A stretch of DNA of 5,810 bases from the NCBI GenBank assembly GCA_029861795.1, contig JAOTYS010000305.1, positions 1 to 5,810 on the forward strand, given 5' to 3'. Below the pieces are notes generated by a model. That model was not told the origin of the DNA. It saw only the letters and a program-made list of their open reading frames with translations, and did no database searches. Made by a program: the position numbers and the translations under genes. The stretch is from Gammaproteobacteria bacterium. GTDB lineage: Bacteria > Pseudomonadota > Gammaproteobacteria > Arenicellales > JAOTYS01. Positions 1 to 5,810 of this stretch are shown one piece after another (within the stretch, counting starts at the first letter, position 1; each line of letters begins with the position of its first letter).

Positions 1-1135
1 GCGAGATTTTTTAAAGAAGATGGCCGTGAGTGGTCTCGCAGTGGGCACCGGCGCCGCCAGCACGATGTGGAGCGGCTCGGCGCAGGCGGCTCGTGAGCTT
101 CGAATGCTTACTTGGGATGGTTATGTTGACCCGCGGGTTATCGACACGTTCACTGAGCGGCACGGCATACAGGTGAGCTACGAGCTTCACACCTCGGATC
201 CGGATTCGGTCAACAAGCTACGCGCTGGGCAAACGGAGATTTGGGACATAATCAATCTCAACAATCCGTGGGCGCGGGAGATGATGTGGCCGGAGGACCT
301 GATCGTCGAACTGCCCCGCGATCGGTTCGAACCTTATTTCGATAAAATGTTGCCGATGTTCAAGTCACCGTACCACTGGGCGATGAGTCTTGATGGAGAG
401 CATCTACTTGGCGTGTGCCAACGCATCGATACGTTCGATTTCATCGTTAACACGGACAAGATTTCTGCGGACATGGGTAAGGACCAAGGTTGGGATCTGT
501 TTCACGATCCTGCCATGAAGGGACGTTATGGCATCCTGGCCTACGATAACTGGAATATCATGCACATGTGCATGGGCGCGGGGCTCCATCCATTTAAGGA
601 CAAGTCTGATGACGATGTCGCGAAATTTGAAGAAACCGCGCGCAACTGGATCAACGGCGCCAAAATCATCTCTGACGACTTCACCCAACTTAATCTCGGG
701 CTGCTTAACGACGAGATCGACGCTTATTTTTCCGGTGGTACCTACTCGATCTCTGCGGCTCGCTTTGAGGGCGAGAATCAGCTCTACCATGTGGCGCCCA
801 AGAGTGGTCCGGCGGACGGTAAAGGCGCCATTCTGTGGATAGAGCTAAACTCAGCGGTCAATAATCCGGACTTCCATCCCGCGGCGTTTGATTGGTTGGA
901 GTATATTTTGCAGCCGGACGTTTCTTATTTCGTGGGCACGGCAGGCGGATTCTTTCTACCGGTTGGCCAGCTGGCGGATCCCGAGGTCCTGGCAAAGTTC
1001 TCGAAAGAAGAACTGGACTCCTTCCAGTGGGATGAGTTCGACTACCGCGCGTCAAGTGCAGTCGAATACGATGTGGTTCCAGATTACAACCGGCTGTATG
1101 ACATTTACACAGCGGCGCTACGCGACAAGACATAA
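1..1135 (+). CDS. Tat-exported extracellular solute-binding protein of a polyamine-type (PotD-like) ABC importer, 5' partial
   Basis: Periplasmic binding protein that would capture substrate and deliver it to the permeases encoded downstream. The frame is open to the left edge: codons from position 2 read R-D-F-L-K-K before the Met at 20. This fits the end of a twin-arginine motif (RRDFLKK), so the true start lies upstream and the Met at 20 is probably internal. A hydrophobic stretch (GLAVGTGAAS) and an A-Q-A-A cleavage region at about residues 21-24 (counting the Met at 20 as 1) follow. The mature protein opens with the PotD-like block TWDGYVDP. From remembered E. coli PotD, W32 and Y35 match its ligand-contacting Trp34 and Tyr37, and W273-I-E275 matches Trp255-x-Asp257, so an aromatic and an acidic residue are kept. 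The length is normal for the family. The exact substrate (putrescine, spermidine or another amine) cannot be read from sequence. The stop is TAA at 1133-1135, and a strong hairpin follows. Confidence 0.93.
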   Translation, partial: RDFLKKMAVSGLAVGTGAASTMWSGSAQAARELRMLTWDGYVDPRVIDTFTERHGIQVSYELHTSDPDSVNKLRAGQTEIWDIINLNNPWAREMMWPEDLIVELPRDRFEPYFDKMLPMFKSPYHWAMSLDGEHLLGVCQRIDTFDFIVNTDKISADMGKDQGWDLFHDPAMKGRYGILAYDNWNIMHMCMGAGLHPFKDKSDDDVAKFEETARNWINGAKIISDDFTQLNLGLLNDEIDAYFSGGTYSISAARFEGENQLYHVAPKSGPADGKGAILWIELNSAVNNPDFHPAAFDWLEYILQPDVSYFVGTAGGFFLPVGQLADPEVLAKFSKEELDSFQWDEFDYRASSAVEYDVVPDYNRLYDIYTAALRDKT

Positions 1136-1176
1136 GCAAACCACGCGCAAGCTCGACTCGATGTACGAGGTCTGGA

Positions 1177-1212
1177 CTGGCGGGGCGGCACGTTGGCGTG
1201 ACGCCCCGTCGG
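1177..1212 (+). promoter_or_regulatory. Strong intercistronic hairpin after the binding-protein gene
   Basis: The outer stem pairs 1177-1187 with 1202-1212, centred on CGGGGCG against CGCCCCG with two outer G-U wobbles. A single G/A mismatch (1188/1201) separates it from an inner stem CACG/CGTG (1189-1192 with 1197-1200) closed by a TTGG loop. That is 15 pairs in 36 nt. It starts about 41 nt after the stop of the binding-protein gene. No T-run follows, so it is not a classic intrinsic terminator. Intercistronic hairpins after the first gene are known in binding-protein transport operons such as malE-malF, where they stabilise the upstream message. The same role is inferred here. Confidence 0.7.
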
Positions 1213-1270
1213 CATCCTCAAGCTTGTCCAATCCTTAGCGACAACAGGTCTATACAAGGTTTCAAAATGA

Positions 1271-1289
1271 TTGGAACCGAATCTTCCAA
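1271..1289. promoter_or_regulatory. TTGGAA-N7-TTCCAA dyad upstream of the ATPase gene, possible operator or weak promoter
   Basis: A perfect 6-bp inverted repeat with a 7-bp spacer lies 34 bp before the ATPase start codon. The left arm TTGGAA (1271-1276) could double as a weak -35, with TAGGAT (1293-1298) as a -10 at 16-bp spacing; each hexamer matches the consensus at 4 of 6 positions. A transcript from there would have a leader of only about 20 nt. An internal promoter or a repressor site would both make sense in the 188-bp gap, but neither is proven. A dyad of this size can arise by chance. Confidence 0.25.
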
Positions 1290-1323
1290 GCATAGGATTG
1301 TGCTGCTACGTCACTAACCGCAG

Positions 1324-2409
1324 ATGAGCCAAGCAACCGACCAACAAGGTTCGCAGCCCATTCTTCGGCTAGTAAACCTGACGAAACGCTACGGTGATTT
1401 AGCCGCGGTCGACGATTTAACATTGGAGATTGTTGATGGCGAATTTTTCACTATCGTAGGGCCCTCCGGAAGCGGCAAGAGTACGTTGTTGCGCATGCTC
1501 GCGGGTTTGGACAAACCGACCCAAGGGGATATCTTTCTTCGCGGTGGGAGGATCAATGATGTCCCTGCGAATCGCCGCCCCACGTGCATGGTTTTTCAGT
1601 CGCTCGCGTTGTTTGATCATAAGACAGTGGGGCACAACATAGAGTTCTCGCTGAAGATGCGCGGTGTCGATCCCGTTTCGCGTCGTAAGCGTTGCATGGA
1701 ACTCATGACTACGGTGCGTCTCCCAGAGAACTTTTACACGAAGCCCGTCACCCAGTGCTCCGGTGGCGAACGACAGCGTGTGGCGGTGGCGCGAGCGCTG
1801 GCGTCGGATCCCGATATCTTGTTCTTTGATGAGCCACTTTCGGCAATCGATTACCGACTGCGAAAACTGTTGGAAGTCGAACTAAAGGATTTGCACCGCA
1901 CCACTGGCAAGACATTTGTTTACATCACTCACTCGCTGGAAGAAGCGATGGTGATGAGCGATCGCATTGGGATCATGCGAGAAGGAAAGCTGATACAGAT
2001 CGGTACACCTAACGACATCTATACCAGGCCACAAAATCGATTTGTTTCTGGGTTTATGGGTGAAATCAACACGCTGGAGGTGCGCACCGGCTCAAACGGC
2101 ATGCTCGAATGCCCTGAGTTTGGCAAGACTCTGACCAGTCCCGATAGGGGCGAGGATTTCTCAGCCGGTTTTTTAGTGATCCGGCCGGAGTCAATGCGCT
2201 TTCTTCGTAATCCGAACGATGCCGAAAACCACATCGAAGGAAGTCTATTCAATGAATACGCTCTAGGCTCCCGTGTTCAATATCACGTGCGAGCAGGCGA
2301 GAAGATGTTCATTGTTGAACAACTTCGCGAGGATGCCTACCAAGGTAATCTCAATGACGACGTAATCATCGGGTGGGATGCGGCGGACAGCGTGTTGGTA
2401 ACGGACTAA
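1324..2409 (+). CDS. ABC transporter ATP-binding protein, PotA-like
   Basis: Cytoplasmic ATPase that would power the importer formed with the two permeases that follow. The 361-residue protein has the usual order: Walker A GPSGSGKST (46-54), Q-loop Gln92 (VFQSLALF), signature region CSGGERQRVA (145-154), Walker B ILFFDEP (165-171, catalytic Glu170), D-loop SAID (173-176) and switch His203. Residues from about 240 to 355 form a TOBE-like accessory region typical of PotA/MalK-class ATPases. The signature starts with Cys instead of Leu and has Glu in the fifth position, and the D-loop has Ile for Leu. These are variations, but all catalytic residues are present. The ATG at 1324 is the first start after an in-frame TAA at 1315-1317, yet no clear Shine-Dalgarno precedes it. 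The stop overlaps the next gene's start by one base (TAATG), indicating translational coupling. Substrate class is inferred from neighbours and family. Confidence 0.95.
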   Translation: MSQATDQQGSQPILRLVNLTKRYGDLAAVDDLTLEIVDGEFFTIVGPSGSGKSTLLRMLAGLDKPTQGDIFLRGGRINDVPANRRPTCMVFQSLALFDHKTVGHNIEFSLKMRGVDPVSRRKRCMELMTTVRLPENFYTKPVTQCSGGERQRVAVARALASDPDILFFDEPLSAIDYRLRKLLEVELKDLHRTTGKTFVYITHSLEEAMVMSDRIGIMREGKLIQIGTPNDIYTRPQNRFVSGFMGEINTLEVRTGSNGMLECPEFGKTLTSPDRGEDFSAGFLVIRPESMRFLRNPNDAENHIEGSLFNEYALGSRVQYHVRAGEKMFIVEQLREDAYQGNLNDDVIIGWDAADSVLVTD

Positions 2410-3335
2410 TGGCTATCTCTTCAACACAACAAGCAACAGCTTTAAGTCCGGCCATAAAAGGAAGTTCGTTGCGGTCGTCACTAAGGGATTGGCTCAGCAA
2501 CCCGGGGGTCATCAGCGCGTCTCCGCTGGCAGTCTTCCTTGTCATCGGGTTTTTGGGCCCAATAGCGATTGTGTTCGGTTTCAGTTTTCTTCCCGAGCGT
2601 ACCTTTGGCTTTGGTGGTGAATGGACGCTAGACAACTATGCCCGATTTTTCTCGCACGGTTATTACAAGACTTTTCTGTGGTCGTTTGGGCTAGCGGCCG
2701 CAACCACTGTATGCACGATATTGATCAGCTATCCCGTTGCTTACGGTTTGTGCAGAACGTTTGGTCGTTGGTCAACGATCATCATGTTGCTGTTGGTGAT
2801 TCCGATTTTCGTTTCCGAGAATGTCCGATTGTTCGGTTGGGTGTTGTTCCTGCTCAAGGGGGGCGGGGTTCTGGCAGGCAGCCTCAAAAATTTGTTTGGC
2901 ATAGAGACGGGATCAATGCTCTACACGCCCGAGGTCATTCTAATGGGAATGGTATACGTGTATCTGCCATTCACTCTATTTCCTATGAACTTAGGGCTTT
3001 CGATGGTGCCGCAGGATCAAGTCAATGCCGCGCGTGATCTCGGTGCGAATCGCTGGCAGATATTTCGTGAGGTTGAGTTGCCGCTCGCCATGCCCGGTAT
3101 TCTTGTTGGGGCACTACTTACCTTTGTTTTGGCTATTGGGGCAATTTCAGAGGCCAAGCTCCTCGGGGGCACAACAGTGGTTATGCTCGCCCATGCAATC
3201 CAGCATGAATTCACCTACGCACAGAATTGGCCACTGGGCTCCGCGATTTCCGTGATAACGATATCGGTTACAGGCATCTTGGTATTCTTTGTGATGCGCC
3301 GCATTGATCTTGACCAGTTGTTGCGAAGACGTTGA
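2409..3335 (+). CDS. ABC transporter permease, PotB-like
   Basis: First inner-membrane subunit of the importer, 308 residues from the ATG at 2409. An upstream in-frame ATG at 2373 exists but lies inside the ATPase gene. The start at 2409 is preferred because it forms the TAATG overlap and has a GGA at 2403-2405 as a weak ribosome-binding site. About six membrane segments are visible, near residues 38-60, 89-114, 122-148, 175-198, 228-252 and 276-297. The cytoplasmic EAA loop that docks on the ATPase is clear at about 206-230 (NAARDLGANRWQ, then REVELPLAMPG). The short N-terminal tail of about 35 residues is polar and the C-terminus is basic (LLRRR). Gene order after a PotA-like ATPase and before a PotC-like permease supports the PotB role. 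The stop is TGA at 3333-3335. Confidence 0.94.
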   Translation: MAISSTQQATALSPAIKGSSLRSSLRDWLSNPGVISASPLAVFLVIGFLGPIAIVFGFSFLPERTFGFGGEWTLDNYARFFSHGYYKTFLWSFGLAAATTVCTILISYPVAYGLCRTFGRWSTIIMLLLVIPIFVSENVRLFGWVLFLLKGGGVLAGSLKNLFGIETGSMLYTPEVILMGMVYVYLPFTLFPMNLGLSMVPQDQVNAARDLGANRWQIFREVELPLAMPGILVGALLTFVLAIGAISEAKLLGGTTVVMLAHAIQHEFTYAQNWPLGSAISVITISVTGILVFFVMRRIDLDQLLRRR

Positions 3336-3336
3336 G

Positions 3337-4146
3337 ATGAATTTCGAAACCAAACCTTGGGTGCGACGGTTGATACTGGCCTGGACGGCCACAGTAATCG
3401 TGTTCCTTTATATTCCCATCGTATCCATGGTGATGACCTCTTTCGTGCAGTCCCGTTACTTTCGGTTCCCGGTAAAAGCATGGAGCACGAAGTGGTACCA
3501 AGAGATGCTTGGCGCGAACCTTACTCAGGATCTGCATCTCACCTCTTTGTATGTAGCGATGACTGTGGCGGTTTGTGCGGTGGTGATCGGTTTTTTCGGA
3601 GCACTTGCCTTTGCTCGATATGATTGGAAGGGTCGCAAGACGTTTCAACGATTGCTGATGTTCCCGATTTTCTTTCCTCAGGCGGTGCTAGGACTCGCGT
3701 TGCTACTATGGCTGACGTATGTCGGGGTAACCCCCAGCTGGGAGGCAGCGGTGTTTACCCATTTAGTTTGGATTGTTCCGATTGTCACGTTGGTGATCTC
3801 TATTCAAGTTTATGGCTATGACACGTCTCAAGAGGAAGCGGCTTTTGATCTCGGAGCGAGTCGTTGGCAAGTATTTCGCGAGGTCACGTTGCCGGCACTA
3901 GCACCCGGTTTGTTTTCAGGTGCATTGTTTGCGTTCTTGCTTTCTTGGGTGAATTTTCCGTTATCTACTTATACCACTGGTGCGGACAGCACGGTCACAG
4001 AGTGGTTATACACTAAGATGATCGCGGCCTACACGCCGATGGTGCCGGCGATGGCGGCGCTTTCAGTATATGGCGCAGTGATTATTCTGTTTGCTGGTTA
4101 CGCCATACTGCTGGCGCGTAGACGCAAAGCTGCAAGCGCGAGCTAG
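3337..4146 (+). CDS. ABC transporter permease, PotC-like
   Basis: Second inner-membrane subunit, 269 residues from the ATG at 3337, which sits one base after the stop of the first permease (TGAGATG). An upstream in-frame ATG at 3304 would overlap the previous gene by 32 bases. The 3337 start gives the usual PotC layout, with a short cytoplasmic N-terminus (MNFETKPWVRR) directly before the first membrane helix. About six helices are visible, near residues 12-36, 68-95, 105-127, 137-158, 190-212 and 236-260. The EAA loop lies at about 166-190 (EEAAFDLGASRWQ, then REVTLPALAPG) and closely resembles that of the first permease, so the pair would offer two similar docking sites to an ATPase dimer. 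There is no strong ribosome-binding site, so translation is probably coupled. The protein ends in a basic tail (RRRKAASAS). It is the last gene of the + strand group. Confidence 0.94.
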   Translation: MNFETKPWVRRLILAWTATVIVFLYIPIVSMVMTSFVQSRYFRFPVKAWSTKWYQEMLGANLTQDLHLTSLYVAMTVAVCAVVIGFFGALAFARYDWKGRKTFQRLLMFPIFFPQAVLGLALLLWLTYVGVTPSWEAAVFTHLVWIVPIVTLVISIQVYGYDTSQEEAAFDLGASRWQVFREVTLPALAPGLFSGALFAFLLSWVNFPLSTYTTGADSTVTEWLYTKMIAAYTPMVPAMAALSVYGAVIILFAGYAILLARRRKAASAS

Positions 4147-4269
4147 GCGAGCGTCCGTTCGTTGGTATCTGCTTCACGATAACAGAAGTTGGGCAGGGAC
4201 TGTATCACGTTCAATAACAGCCACGGGACACGCTCGAAGGCTCGCCATTTTGTATGGTTGCAGTCATGT
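4147..4269. other. Convergent intergenic gap, no recognisable terminator
   Basis: This stretch separates the 3' ends of the PotC-like and ProV-like genes. A 7-bp complementary pair (GGCGAGC at 4146-4152 and GCTCGCC at 4240-4246) is 87 nt apart and is followed by only a short T-rich stretch. No compact stem with a U-tract is visible on either strand. Transcription of both units may end by Rho or run into the opposing gene. Confidence 0.5.
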
Positions 4270-5292
4270 CTAGCCTTCGCTCTTAAACAGCACGTCGACT
4301 ACGTCTTGACGGGTTAACGATCCCACCGTAACGCCGTCTGCGTCCACCACACGCACGGGTAACTCGCAGTCCAAGATGTCGTTGACGACTGTCGAGATCT
4401 TGTCGTTTGCGGTCAACACAAGATCTCCATGGGTGTCTTCTGTTGGCGGGGTCATCACGCTCTTTACCGTCAACAATTTACCGCGTGGGGCATCCTTGGT
4501 GAACTCGGCGACATAGTCGCTGGCGGGATTAGTAATAAGTTCCTCGGCGGTCCCAAGTTGTACGATTACGCCCTCGTTCATAATAGCGATGCGGTCCGCC
4601 AAACGGATCGCCTCATCGAAGTCGTGGGTAATGAACACGATGGTCTTCTGTAATAAGTTCTGGAGCCGCAAAAACTCGTTCTGCATCTCGCGGCGGATCA
4701 ACGGGTCCAGCGCTGAAAATGGTTCGTCTAGAAACCATACATCGGGTTCGACGGCGAGCGAGCGTGCGATTCCCACGCGTTGTTGTTGTCCGCCGGAAAG
4801 TTCTCGAGGGTAGTAACTTTCGCGTCCTTTAAGGCCGACAAGTTCTATCATCTCCATGGCGCGATCGTGGCGTTTAGTTTTCTCGATACCCTGGACTTCG
4901 AGTGGAAACGCTACGTTTTGGAGCACCGTTCGATGCGGCAGCAGCGCGAAGTGCTGAAAAACCATCCCCATTTTGTGGCGGCGAAGTTCGATCATTTCTT
5001 TGGCCGACGCCTTTAACAAGTCTGCCCCATCGAAAAAGATTTCACCGCCGGTGGGTTCAATAAGGCGAGACAGACATCGCACCAGGGTCGATTTGCCTGA
5101 TCCACTCAAACCCATAATGACCAAGATTTCCCCTTGCAAGACGTCTAGCGATGCATCTCGAACCGCGGGGATGTATCCGGCTGCGTTGATCGCCTCAATA
5201 GTGGGGTTGCCACCTTGTTTGTGAAGGAATTCAGTTGGATTGGAACCAAAGAGCTTCCAAACTCTCCGGCATGAAATCTTAGATTCCATCAC
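4270..5292 (-). CDS. Glycine betaine/proline-type ABC transporter ATP-binding protein (ProV/OpuAA-like) with short CBS region
   Basis: Cytoplasmic ATPase of the quaternary-amine uptake class that imports compatible solutes such as glycine betaine. In the 340 residues are Walker A GLSGSGKST (61-69), Q-loop Gln113 within MVFQHFALLPHRTVL, signature LSGGQ (165-169), Walker B VWFLDEP (185-191, Glu190) and switch His223. The FALLPHRTVL block and the roughly 45-residue N-terminal lead-in are typical of ProV/OpuAA. Residues about 272-336 look like one CBS motif (VMTPP, then LPVRVVDADG and GSLTRQDVV). E. coli ProV is about 400 residues with two CBS motifs, so the C-terminus is short here. The start is GTG at 5292, with AGGT at 5302-5299 well spaced before it; the ATG one codon in (5289) is an equal alternative. 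No permease or binding-protein partner lies in the window, so it appears as an orphan. ChoV-like or other amine specificity is possible. Confidence 0.93.
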   Translation of the reverse strand: MMESKISCRRVWKLFGSNPTEFLHKQGGNPTIEAINAAGYIPAVRDASLDVLQGEILVIMGLSGSGKSTLVRCLSRLIEPTGGEIFFDGADLLKASAKEMIELRRHKMGMVFQHFALLPHRTVLQNVAFPLEVQGIEKTKRHDRAMEMIELVGLKGRESYYPRELSGGQQQRVGIARSLAVEPDVWFLDEPFSALDPLIRREMQNEFLRLQNLLQKTIVFITHDFDEAIRLADRIAIMNEGVIVQLGTAEELITNPASDYVAEFTKDAPRGKLLTVKSVMTPPTEDTHGDLVLTANDKISTVVNDILDCELPVRVVDADGVTVGSLTRQDVVDVLFKSEG

Positions 5293-5519: not shown

Positions 5520-5542
5520 GTTCGCCTAAAGGCGAACCTACA
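5520..5542 (-). repeat. REP-like hairpin A with GTAG head, first of three copies
   Basis: A perfect 7-bp stem (5520-5526 with 5531-5537) with loop TAAA, followed by CTACA (5538-5542), which is TGTAG on the - strand. Further copies are at 5619-5641 and 5718-5740, all three identical. The left boundary of the array falls exactly at this stem: the bases before 5520 do not match the outer spacer seen before the later copies. Confidence 0.85.
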
Positions 5543-5572
5543 ACGAGCCTTCGATGCTTGATATGTGACCTG

Positions 5573-5595
5573 TGTAGGTACGTCTTCAGACGTAC
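5573..5595 (+). repeat. REP-like hairpin B with GTAG head, first of three copies
   Basis: TGTAG (5573-5577) followed by an 8-bp stem (5578-5585 with 5588-5595) around TC, or equally 7 bp if the loop is taken as TTCA without the innermost T-A pair. Copies are at 5672-5694 and 5771-5793. The copy in unit 3 has T to C at 5781, which leaves a C/A mismatch on the + strand but a G-U pair on the - strand RNA. It matches the - strand reading of element A at 18 of 23 positions. Confidence 0.85.
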
Positions 5596-5810
5596 ATTGT
5601 GTCGGTTTGCACTACGAAGTTCGCCTAAAGGCGAACCTACAACGAGCCTTCGATGCTTGATATGTGACCTGTGTAGGTACGTCTTCAGACGTACATTGTG
5701 TCGGTTTGCACTACGAAGTTCGCCTAAAGGCGAACCTACAACGAGCCTTCGATGCCTGACATGTGACCTGTGTAGGTACGCCTTCAGACGTACATTGGGC
5801 CAGTTTGCAC

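Follow-up and report, generated by a model that had tools for sequence, protein, structure and literature searches.

Anatomy of the hairpin array

The DNA analysed here, a stretch of 5,810 nt from a gammaproteobacterial contig (JAOTYS010000305.1) that is referred to as the window, ends in a tandem array of short hairpins at positions 5520–5810. We consider it highly probable that these hairpins are GTAG-headed repetitive extragenic palindromes (REPs), arranged as a tandem array of bacterial interspersed mosaic elements (BIMEs) or REP doublets forming hairpins (REPINs). This assignment is based on the anatomy of the array, the dispersed relatives of its hairpins, their covarying stems, the genes for REP-associated tyrosine transposases (RAYTs) that are flanked by such hairpins, and the similar arrays at a RAYT locus (L219) and in the metagenome-assembled genome (MAG) 21_Jan_SF_Bin47 (Bin47). 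The features are as follows.

5520–5810, no strand: tandem array, 2.9 × 99 bp (self-comparison; homologous 117-bp unit in Bin47)
5520–5542, minus strand: REP hairpin type 1 of unit 1, with GTAG head, 8-bp stem and loop centre TTTA (element comparison and folding as single-stranded DNA)
5573–5595, plus strand: REP hairpin type 2 of unit 1, with GTAG head, 8-bp stem and loop centre TTCA (element comparison and folding as single-stranded DNA)
5619–5641, minus strand: REP hairpin type 1 of unit 2, forming a pair with 5573–5595, GTAG ends outside and spacer 23 nt (element comparison)
5672–5694, plus strand: REP hairpin type 2 of unit 2 (element comparison)
5718–5740, minus strand: REP hairpin type 1 of unit 3, forming the second GTAG-outside pair with 5672–5694 (element comparison)
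5771–5793, plus strand: REP hairpin type 2 of unit 3, with stem pair 11/18 broken (element comparison)

Units 1 (5520–5618) and 2 (5619–5717) are 100% identical to each other, while unit 3 (5718–5810), which is cut by the window end so that 93 nt are present, shows 94% identity to them. Each unit carries one minus-strand and one plus-strand hairpin of 23 nt, both GTAG-headed and inverted relative to each other, as the preliminary description of this DNA had proposed. The minus-strand hairpin reads TGTAGGTTCGCCTTTAGGCGAAC in all three units, and the plus-strand hairpin reads TGTAGGTACGTCTTCAGACGTAC in units 1 and 2. Of their 23 positions, 18 are the same in both hairpins and five (8, 11, 15, 18 and 21) differ, where 8/21 and 11/18 are stem pairs changed in a compensatory way and the remaining difference is one loop base; the earlier account was exact on this point. 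In the plus-strand hairpin of unit 3, C at position 11 faces A at position 18, thus this stem pair is broken, a detail that the preliminary description does not give. A GTAG REP is a palindrome of 20–40 nt with an unpaired GTAG end, and the hairpins in the window have 23 nt with an 8-bp stem after the GTAG. Moreover, two inverted REPs as a unit define a BIME or REPIN, and two GTAG-outside pairs with a 23-nt spacer are present; their tandem repetition (2.9 × 99 bp) corresponds to an ordered cluster. A CRISPR array was ruled out, since the 99-bp units repeat as a whole, spacers included, without unique spacers.

Folding and covariation of the stems

As single-stranded DNA (ssDNA), the minus-type hairpin folds better than its shuffled versions (z −4.8; 1 of 200 shuffles as good), and so does the plus-type hairpin (z −3.1; 5 of 200). 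The GTAG-outside pair at 5573–5641 folds into separate hairpins and not into a single long one. Both hairpins carry a TTNA loop and differ in the loop only at its third base. The preliminary description had taken the compensatory changes as an indication of selection on the folded form. The two window elements alone are insufficient proof of this. Exact matches to a pattern with positions 8, 11, 18 and 21 left free gave 155 copies in distinct contexts. Watson-Crick pairing is found in 146 of them at 8/21 and in 147 at 11/18. Among the 24 distinct sequences the counts are 18 and 16, respectively, whereas 2000 shuffles, which ignore relatedness, averaged 7.5 and 8.8 and reached at most 16 for either pair; thus the count at 8/21 lies above the best shuffle, while that at 11/18 only equals it. 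This covariation across the family supports selection on the fold.

Relatives of the hairpins in other genomes

The copy counts, pairings and RAYT associations reported below come from related genomes. A degenerate-pattern scan of a species-genome collection returned 79 stretches, 61 of them from the MAG BWSM_42. In 11 MAGs, the pattern TGTAGGTNCGNCTTNAGNCGNAC with at most 1 mismatch has 211, 168, 53, 34, 28, 7, 3, 3, 3, 2 and 1 copies, the richest being BWSM_42 (G001; 211 copies) and S140_26 (168 copies), and the reversed pattern used as a control gave 0 matches in each of the 11. The sampled copies are mostly extragenic in these genomes. In stretches of the two richest MAGs, selected for containing the pattern, only 11 of 133 and 6 of 62 copy midpoints (copies with at most 2 mismatches) lie inside open reading frames (ORFs), which cover 84.6% and 87.5% of the sequence, respectively (ORFs of at least 100 amino acids, simple longest-first choice). 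Thus the many dispersed intergenic copies, single and paired, that had been anticipated do exist, at least among the relatives.

Most close pairs, counted up to a distance of 150 nt, are inverted and have their GTAG ends outside (48 of 53 in BWSM_42 and 12 of 19 in S140_26), and such pairs recur in many unrelated gene contexts. In the tiles of the BWSM_42 scan (L001–L079), the spacers of the GTAG-outside pairs fall mainly into two classes, 1–2 nt and about 46 nt. The partners of these pairs differ by at least 1 base in 47 of 48 cases in the BWSM_42 tiles and in 10 of 12 in S140_26. A general rule of unlike partners is not claimed, because many of these pairs are copies of one unit, in some the partners differ by a single change, and pairs with equal partners were seen in N2D-Bin_13 (L045) and G010 (L117). 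A wider count gave unlike partners in 39 of 43 pairs from 16 sources, and it is not relied on here since the scanner missed the pairs of L174 and L175 and may misframe stems. In addition, the family pattern is present in two contigs of a viral collection, and in a contig of this collection (L081) the two stem types of the window occur once, as a lone pair. Just before that pair, another inverted GTAG-headed pair of a different sequence type lies at L081:535–610. No match to the array was found in plasmid records.

The nearest array

When the array and its flank were compared by BLAST with 13 genomes or records, 11 of these gave some match at E ≤ 0.01, and the best was Bin47 (E 6.5e-20). Its tandem unit is 117 bp long and present in 2.1 copies; it has the two hairpins of the window, their order and orientation unchanged, and the spacers are partly alignable. 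The best homologues in Bin47 of two window ATPases are 66% and 38–46% identical, thus Bin47 is not a close relative. Among the 57 genomes searched in the order of Bin47, the exact pattern was matched in Bin47 only.

These observations bear on two other explanations of the array. The first is a purely local minisatellite, in which slippage during replication, or recombination, copied a segment with two hairpins without any link to transposition. Local duplication would give just such identical units 1 and 2 with unit 3 at 94%, and the copies counted elsewhere belong to relatives rather than to the window organism's own genome. Nevertheless, the family that includes both hairpins reaches 211 copies in another genome, a homologous tandem unit occurs in Bin47, and both types form a lone pair in L081, so that we regard this explanation as very unlikely, while local duplication may be how the array grew after arrival of the pair. 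The second is that the copies were made by the assembler at a contig end. It is true that the window ends within unit 3 and that the contig of Bin47 likewise ends within its own array. However, unit 3 differs by 6% from units 1 and 2, a separate assembly (Bin47) has a diverged unit with the hairpin order unchanged, and a protein of the window is recorded on a contig of 62,922 bp, so the window end need not be a contig end. An assembly artefact is thus extremely improbable.

Association with RAYT genes

The preliminary description had suggested looking for a RAYT gene flanked by the same hairpins. Such a gene was found in a related genome, at locus L085 of S140_26. The related genomes thus do not show the lack of further copies and of a RAYT that would have left a local duplication only. 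Its protein is a RAYT according to NCBIfam NF047646 (140.3 bits, cut-off 80) and resembles the solved TnpArep structure 4er8 (E 1.2e-5), which we take to be that of an Escherichia coli protein. Family hairpins stand on both sides of the gene and are concentrated around it: there are 8 of them in these 3.3 kb, whereas 286 kb of S140_26 hold 74. The gene also lies between two direct-repeat pairs (L085:1085–2248; 156 nt, 90%, and 177 nt, 94%; spaced about 826 nt), the second of which ends in a family hairpin. Matches to Y1 transposases occur in 10 of the 11 MAGs. With the RAYT of S140_26 as query, five intact close matches (E < 1e-34) and one gene in two pieces were obtained, and the remaining MAGs gave distant matches only (E 2e-13 and weaker) or none. 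Hairpins of the window build are near all five intact close RAYTs, in four cases on both sides and in G002 on the sole side that its contig shows well. Such a hairpin is present anywhere in 4 of the 22 other Y1 loci scanned.

From the class of S140_26, 369 genomes were drawn, of which 40 had a match at E ≤ 1e-30 to its RAYT. We scanned 34 RAYT loci, namely 30 of the 48 listed matches of the draw and four from the search of the 11 MAGs. At 15 of the 34, a GTRG hairpin with a TTNA loop lies within 400 bp of the RAYT gene, at 13 of them on both sides, whereas only 2 of 25 other Y1 loci had a TTNA hairpin (3 of 26 counting L094). That locus (G001:C199) is a fragment of an IS200-like transposase with three family hairpins 150–350 bp away. 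Furthermore, loci with the TTNA label group together on the RAYT tree, on which 14 of 31 inner branches are open: the label requires 3 changes, where shuffled labels average about 11, and none of 500 shuffles was as low. At L219, a tandem array in which unlike hairpins alternate stands on either side of the RAYT gene (4.2 × 113 bp and 3.5 × 107 bp); these two arrays are the closest parallel to the form of the window array. Right beside the RAYT array of this locus is a 7-bp tandem repeat in 9 perfect copies (L219:2375–2437).

Neighbouring genes

The gene nearest to the array encodes an ATPase of an ABC transporter.

4270–5292, minus strand: ABC transporter ATPase gene (with glycine betaine/proline in the names of some of the relatives listed)

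A distance of 227 nt separates the array from the start of this gene. Its product is the protein recorded on the contig of 62,922 bp, and the best other relative is 79% identical (among 120 relatives listed of 7998). Past it, genes for a solute-binding protein, an ATPase and two permeases all lie on the plus strand, so that within 2–5292 this row is convergent with the minus-strand ATPase gene; the row is probably an operon of the polyamine type. A further explanation is that the array is an RNA-level element (attenuator, terminator or stabiliser of the mRNA of neighbouring transcripts) kept for its fold, with a mobile origin being secondary. The hairpins do fold stably, and such roles of REPs are discussed in PMC3733652. 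The promoter and terminator scan, however, gave nothing within the array, no Rfam match was found in the window, and the pairs recur across many unrelated gene contexts. We consider this explanation highly improbable as an account of the array, and an RNA-level role would in any case be compatible with a BIME/REPIN array.

Weight of the evidence and a possible mechanism

Several observations count against the array being part of a RAYT-linked BIME/REPIN family. The evidence on copies, pairing and RAYT association was gathered from relatives and not from the genome of the window organism. In the 4.5 Mb of Bin47, the pattern is matched only 3 times. The search for close RAYTs found none in 6 of the 11 MAGs (BWSM_42, Bin47, G006, G007, G010 and G011), which may be due to incomplete MAGs; BWSM_42 has 211 copies, yet its best RAYT match has E 8.4e-8, for which an incomplete MAG, gene loss or another enzyme are candidate explanations. 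The split RAYT of G005 has no such hairpin near it. In the wider survey, 19 of the 34 RAYT loci lack a TTNA hairpin within 400 bp; GTRG hairpins with a different loop are present at 11 of these 19, and the scan showed none at the other 8. In addition, 396 of 2000 random 1250-bp segments of REP-rich loci contain a TTNA hairpin. The TTNA loop is also partly imposed by the search patterns used for the relatives. Finally, a fixed cleavage site beside the heads was not seen (position −4 favours C, and position −1 favours C or T); a CT site was looked for there and is not claimed, as no fixed CT stands out.

Considering both sides, we still favour a tandem BIME/REPIN array. Its basic unit is a pair of 23-nt hairpins that differ slightly and are inverted relative to each other, their GTAG ends facing outward and 23 nt lying between them. 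A RAYT, a single-strand transposase of the HUH type, may use the GTAG head and the TTNA loop to recognise the folded strand and may cut nearby, which would seed a hairpin pair at the site. Slippage, unequal recombination or repeated RAYT action could then duplicate the pair together with a 30-nt flank into a tandem array, and the present data do not separate these three routes. It is also conceivable, if somewhat doubtful, that GTAG REPs with TTNA loops make up a class that has its own RAYT clade and moves between distant bacteria, and whose pairs are often kept unlike by paired stem changes so that the hairpins fold singly and not as one long cruciform. Movement between lineages is suggested because Bin47, alone in its order among the genomes searched, matches the pattern and yet shares the two-hairpin tandem unit with the distinct lineage of the window.

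Comparison with known systems

The preliminary description had considered that both the element family and its tandem form may be undescribed. The tandem form is not new, because tandem REPIN arrays including flanking DNA have already been described in Pseudomonas fluorescens SBW25 (Bertels and Rainey 2011, PMC3116915). Indeed, descriptions exist of inverted REP pairs, of unlike partners, of flanked tandem units and of clusters next to RAYT genes (PMC3116915, PMC3733652, PMC2817692). The sequence family, on the other hand, was not found in print by our literature searches, which consensus sequences shown as figures escape. A full-text search with oligonucleotide strings of the family gave papers that, by title and the start of the abstract, are not about REPs, and in the accessible text of RepRanger (PMC12306157) RAYT is not mentioned and GTAG occurs once, in the reference list.

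Among the closest descriptions is that of the GTAG-tagged REP super-family (Di Nocera et al. 2013, PMC3733652), which shares with the window family the GTAG end, a stem of 6–9 bp, a short loop, inverted GTAG-outside dimers, unlike partners in many families, and flanked dimer clusters in tandem. Its 24 consensus sequences are given in a figure; the likeness is one of description, and the window family may be one of the 24. The tandem REPIN clusters of SBW25 resemble our loci in standing beside RAYT genes (PMC3116915), but the host and the REP sequence are different, and dispersal was counted there in a complete genome and here in relatives only. The Group 3 duo of Stenotrophomonas (Sm) has a 23-nt REP with a perfect palindrome of 8 bp, as in the window (Corneloup et al. 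2021, PMC8266576). For the duo of Marinomonas (Mb), also of Group 3, the T, T and A of the TTNA loop are required for cutting and the third base is free, and it is only at this free base that the loops of the window hairpins differ. In contrast, the Mb stems have 5 bp and begin two bases from the GTAG, whereas those of the window, 8 bp long (or 7 bp if the loop is counted as 4 bases), follow it directly (PMC8266576). The BIME-2 of Escherichia coli is likewise a tandem inverted unit of two REPs of two kinds, but enterobacterial REPs are long, interrupted palindromes and those of the window are short and perfect (PMC2817692).

Even if the array is ordinary, as we think, its annotation as a repeat array is sound. 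Uncultured lineages thereby gain RAYT-linked repeats, and the family supplies natural RAYT/REP pairs for checking a loop rule that is known from one tested enzyme. Furthermore, its unlike hairpin pairs bear on why REP dimers prefer unlike partners, a question that is called open in PMC3733652.
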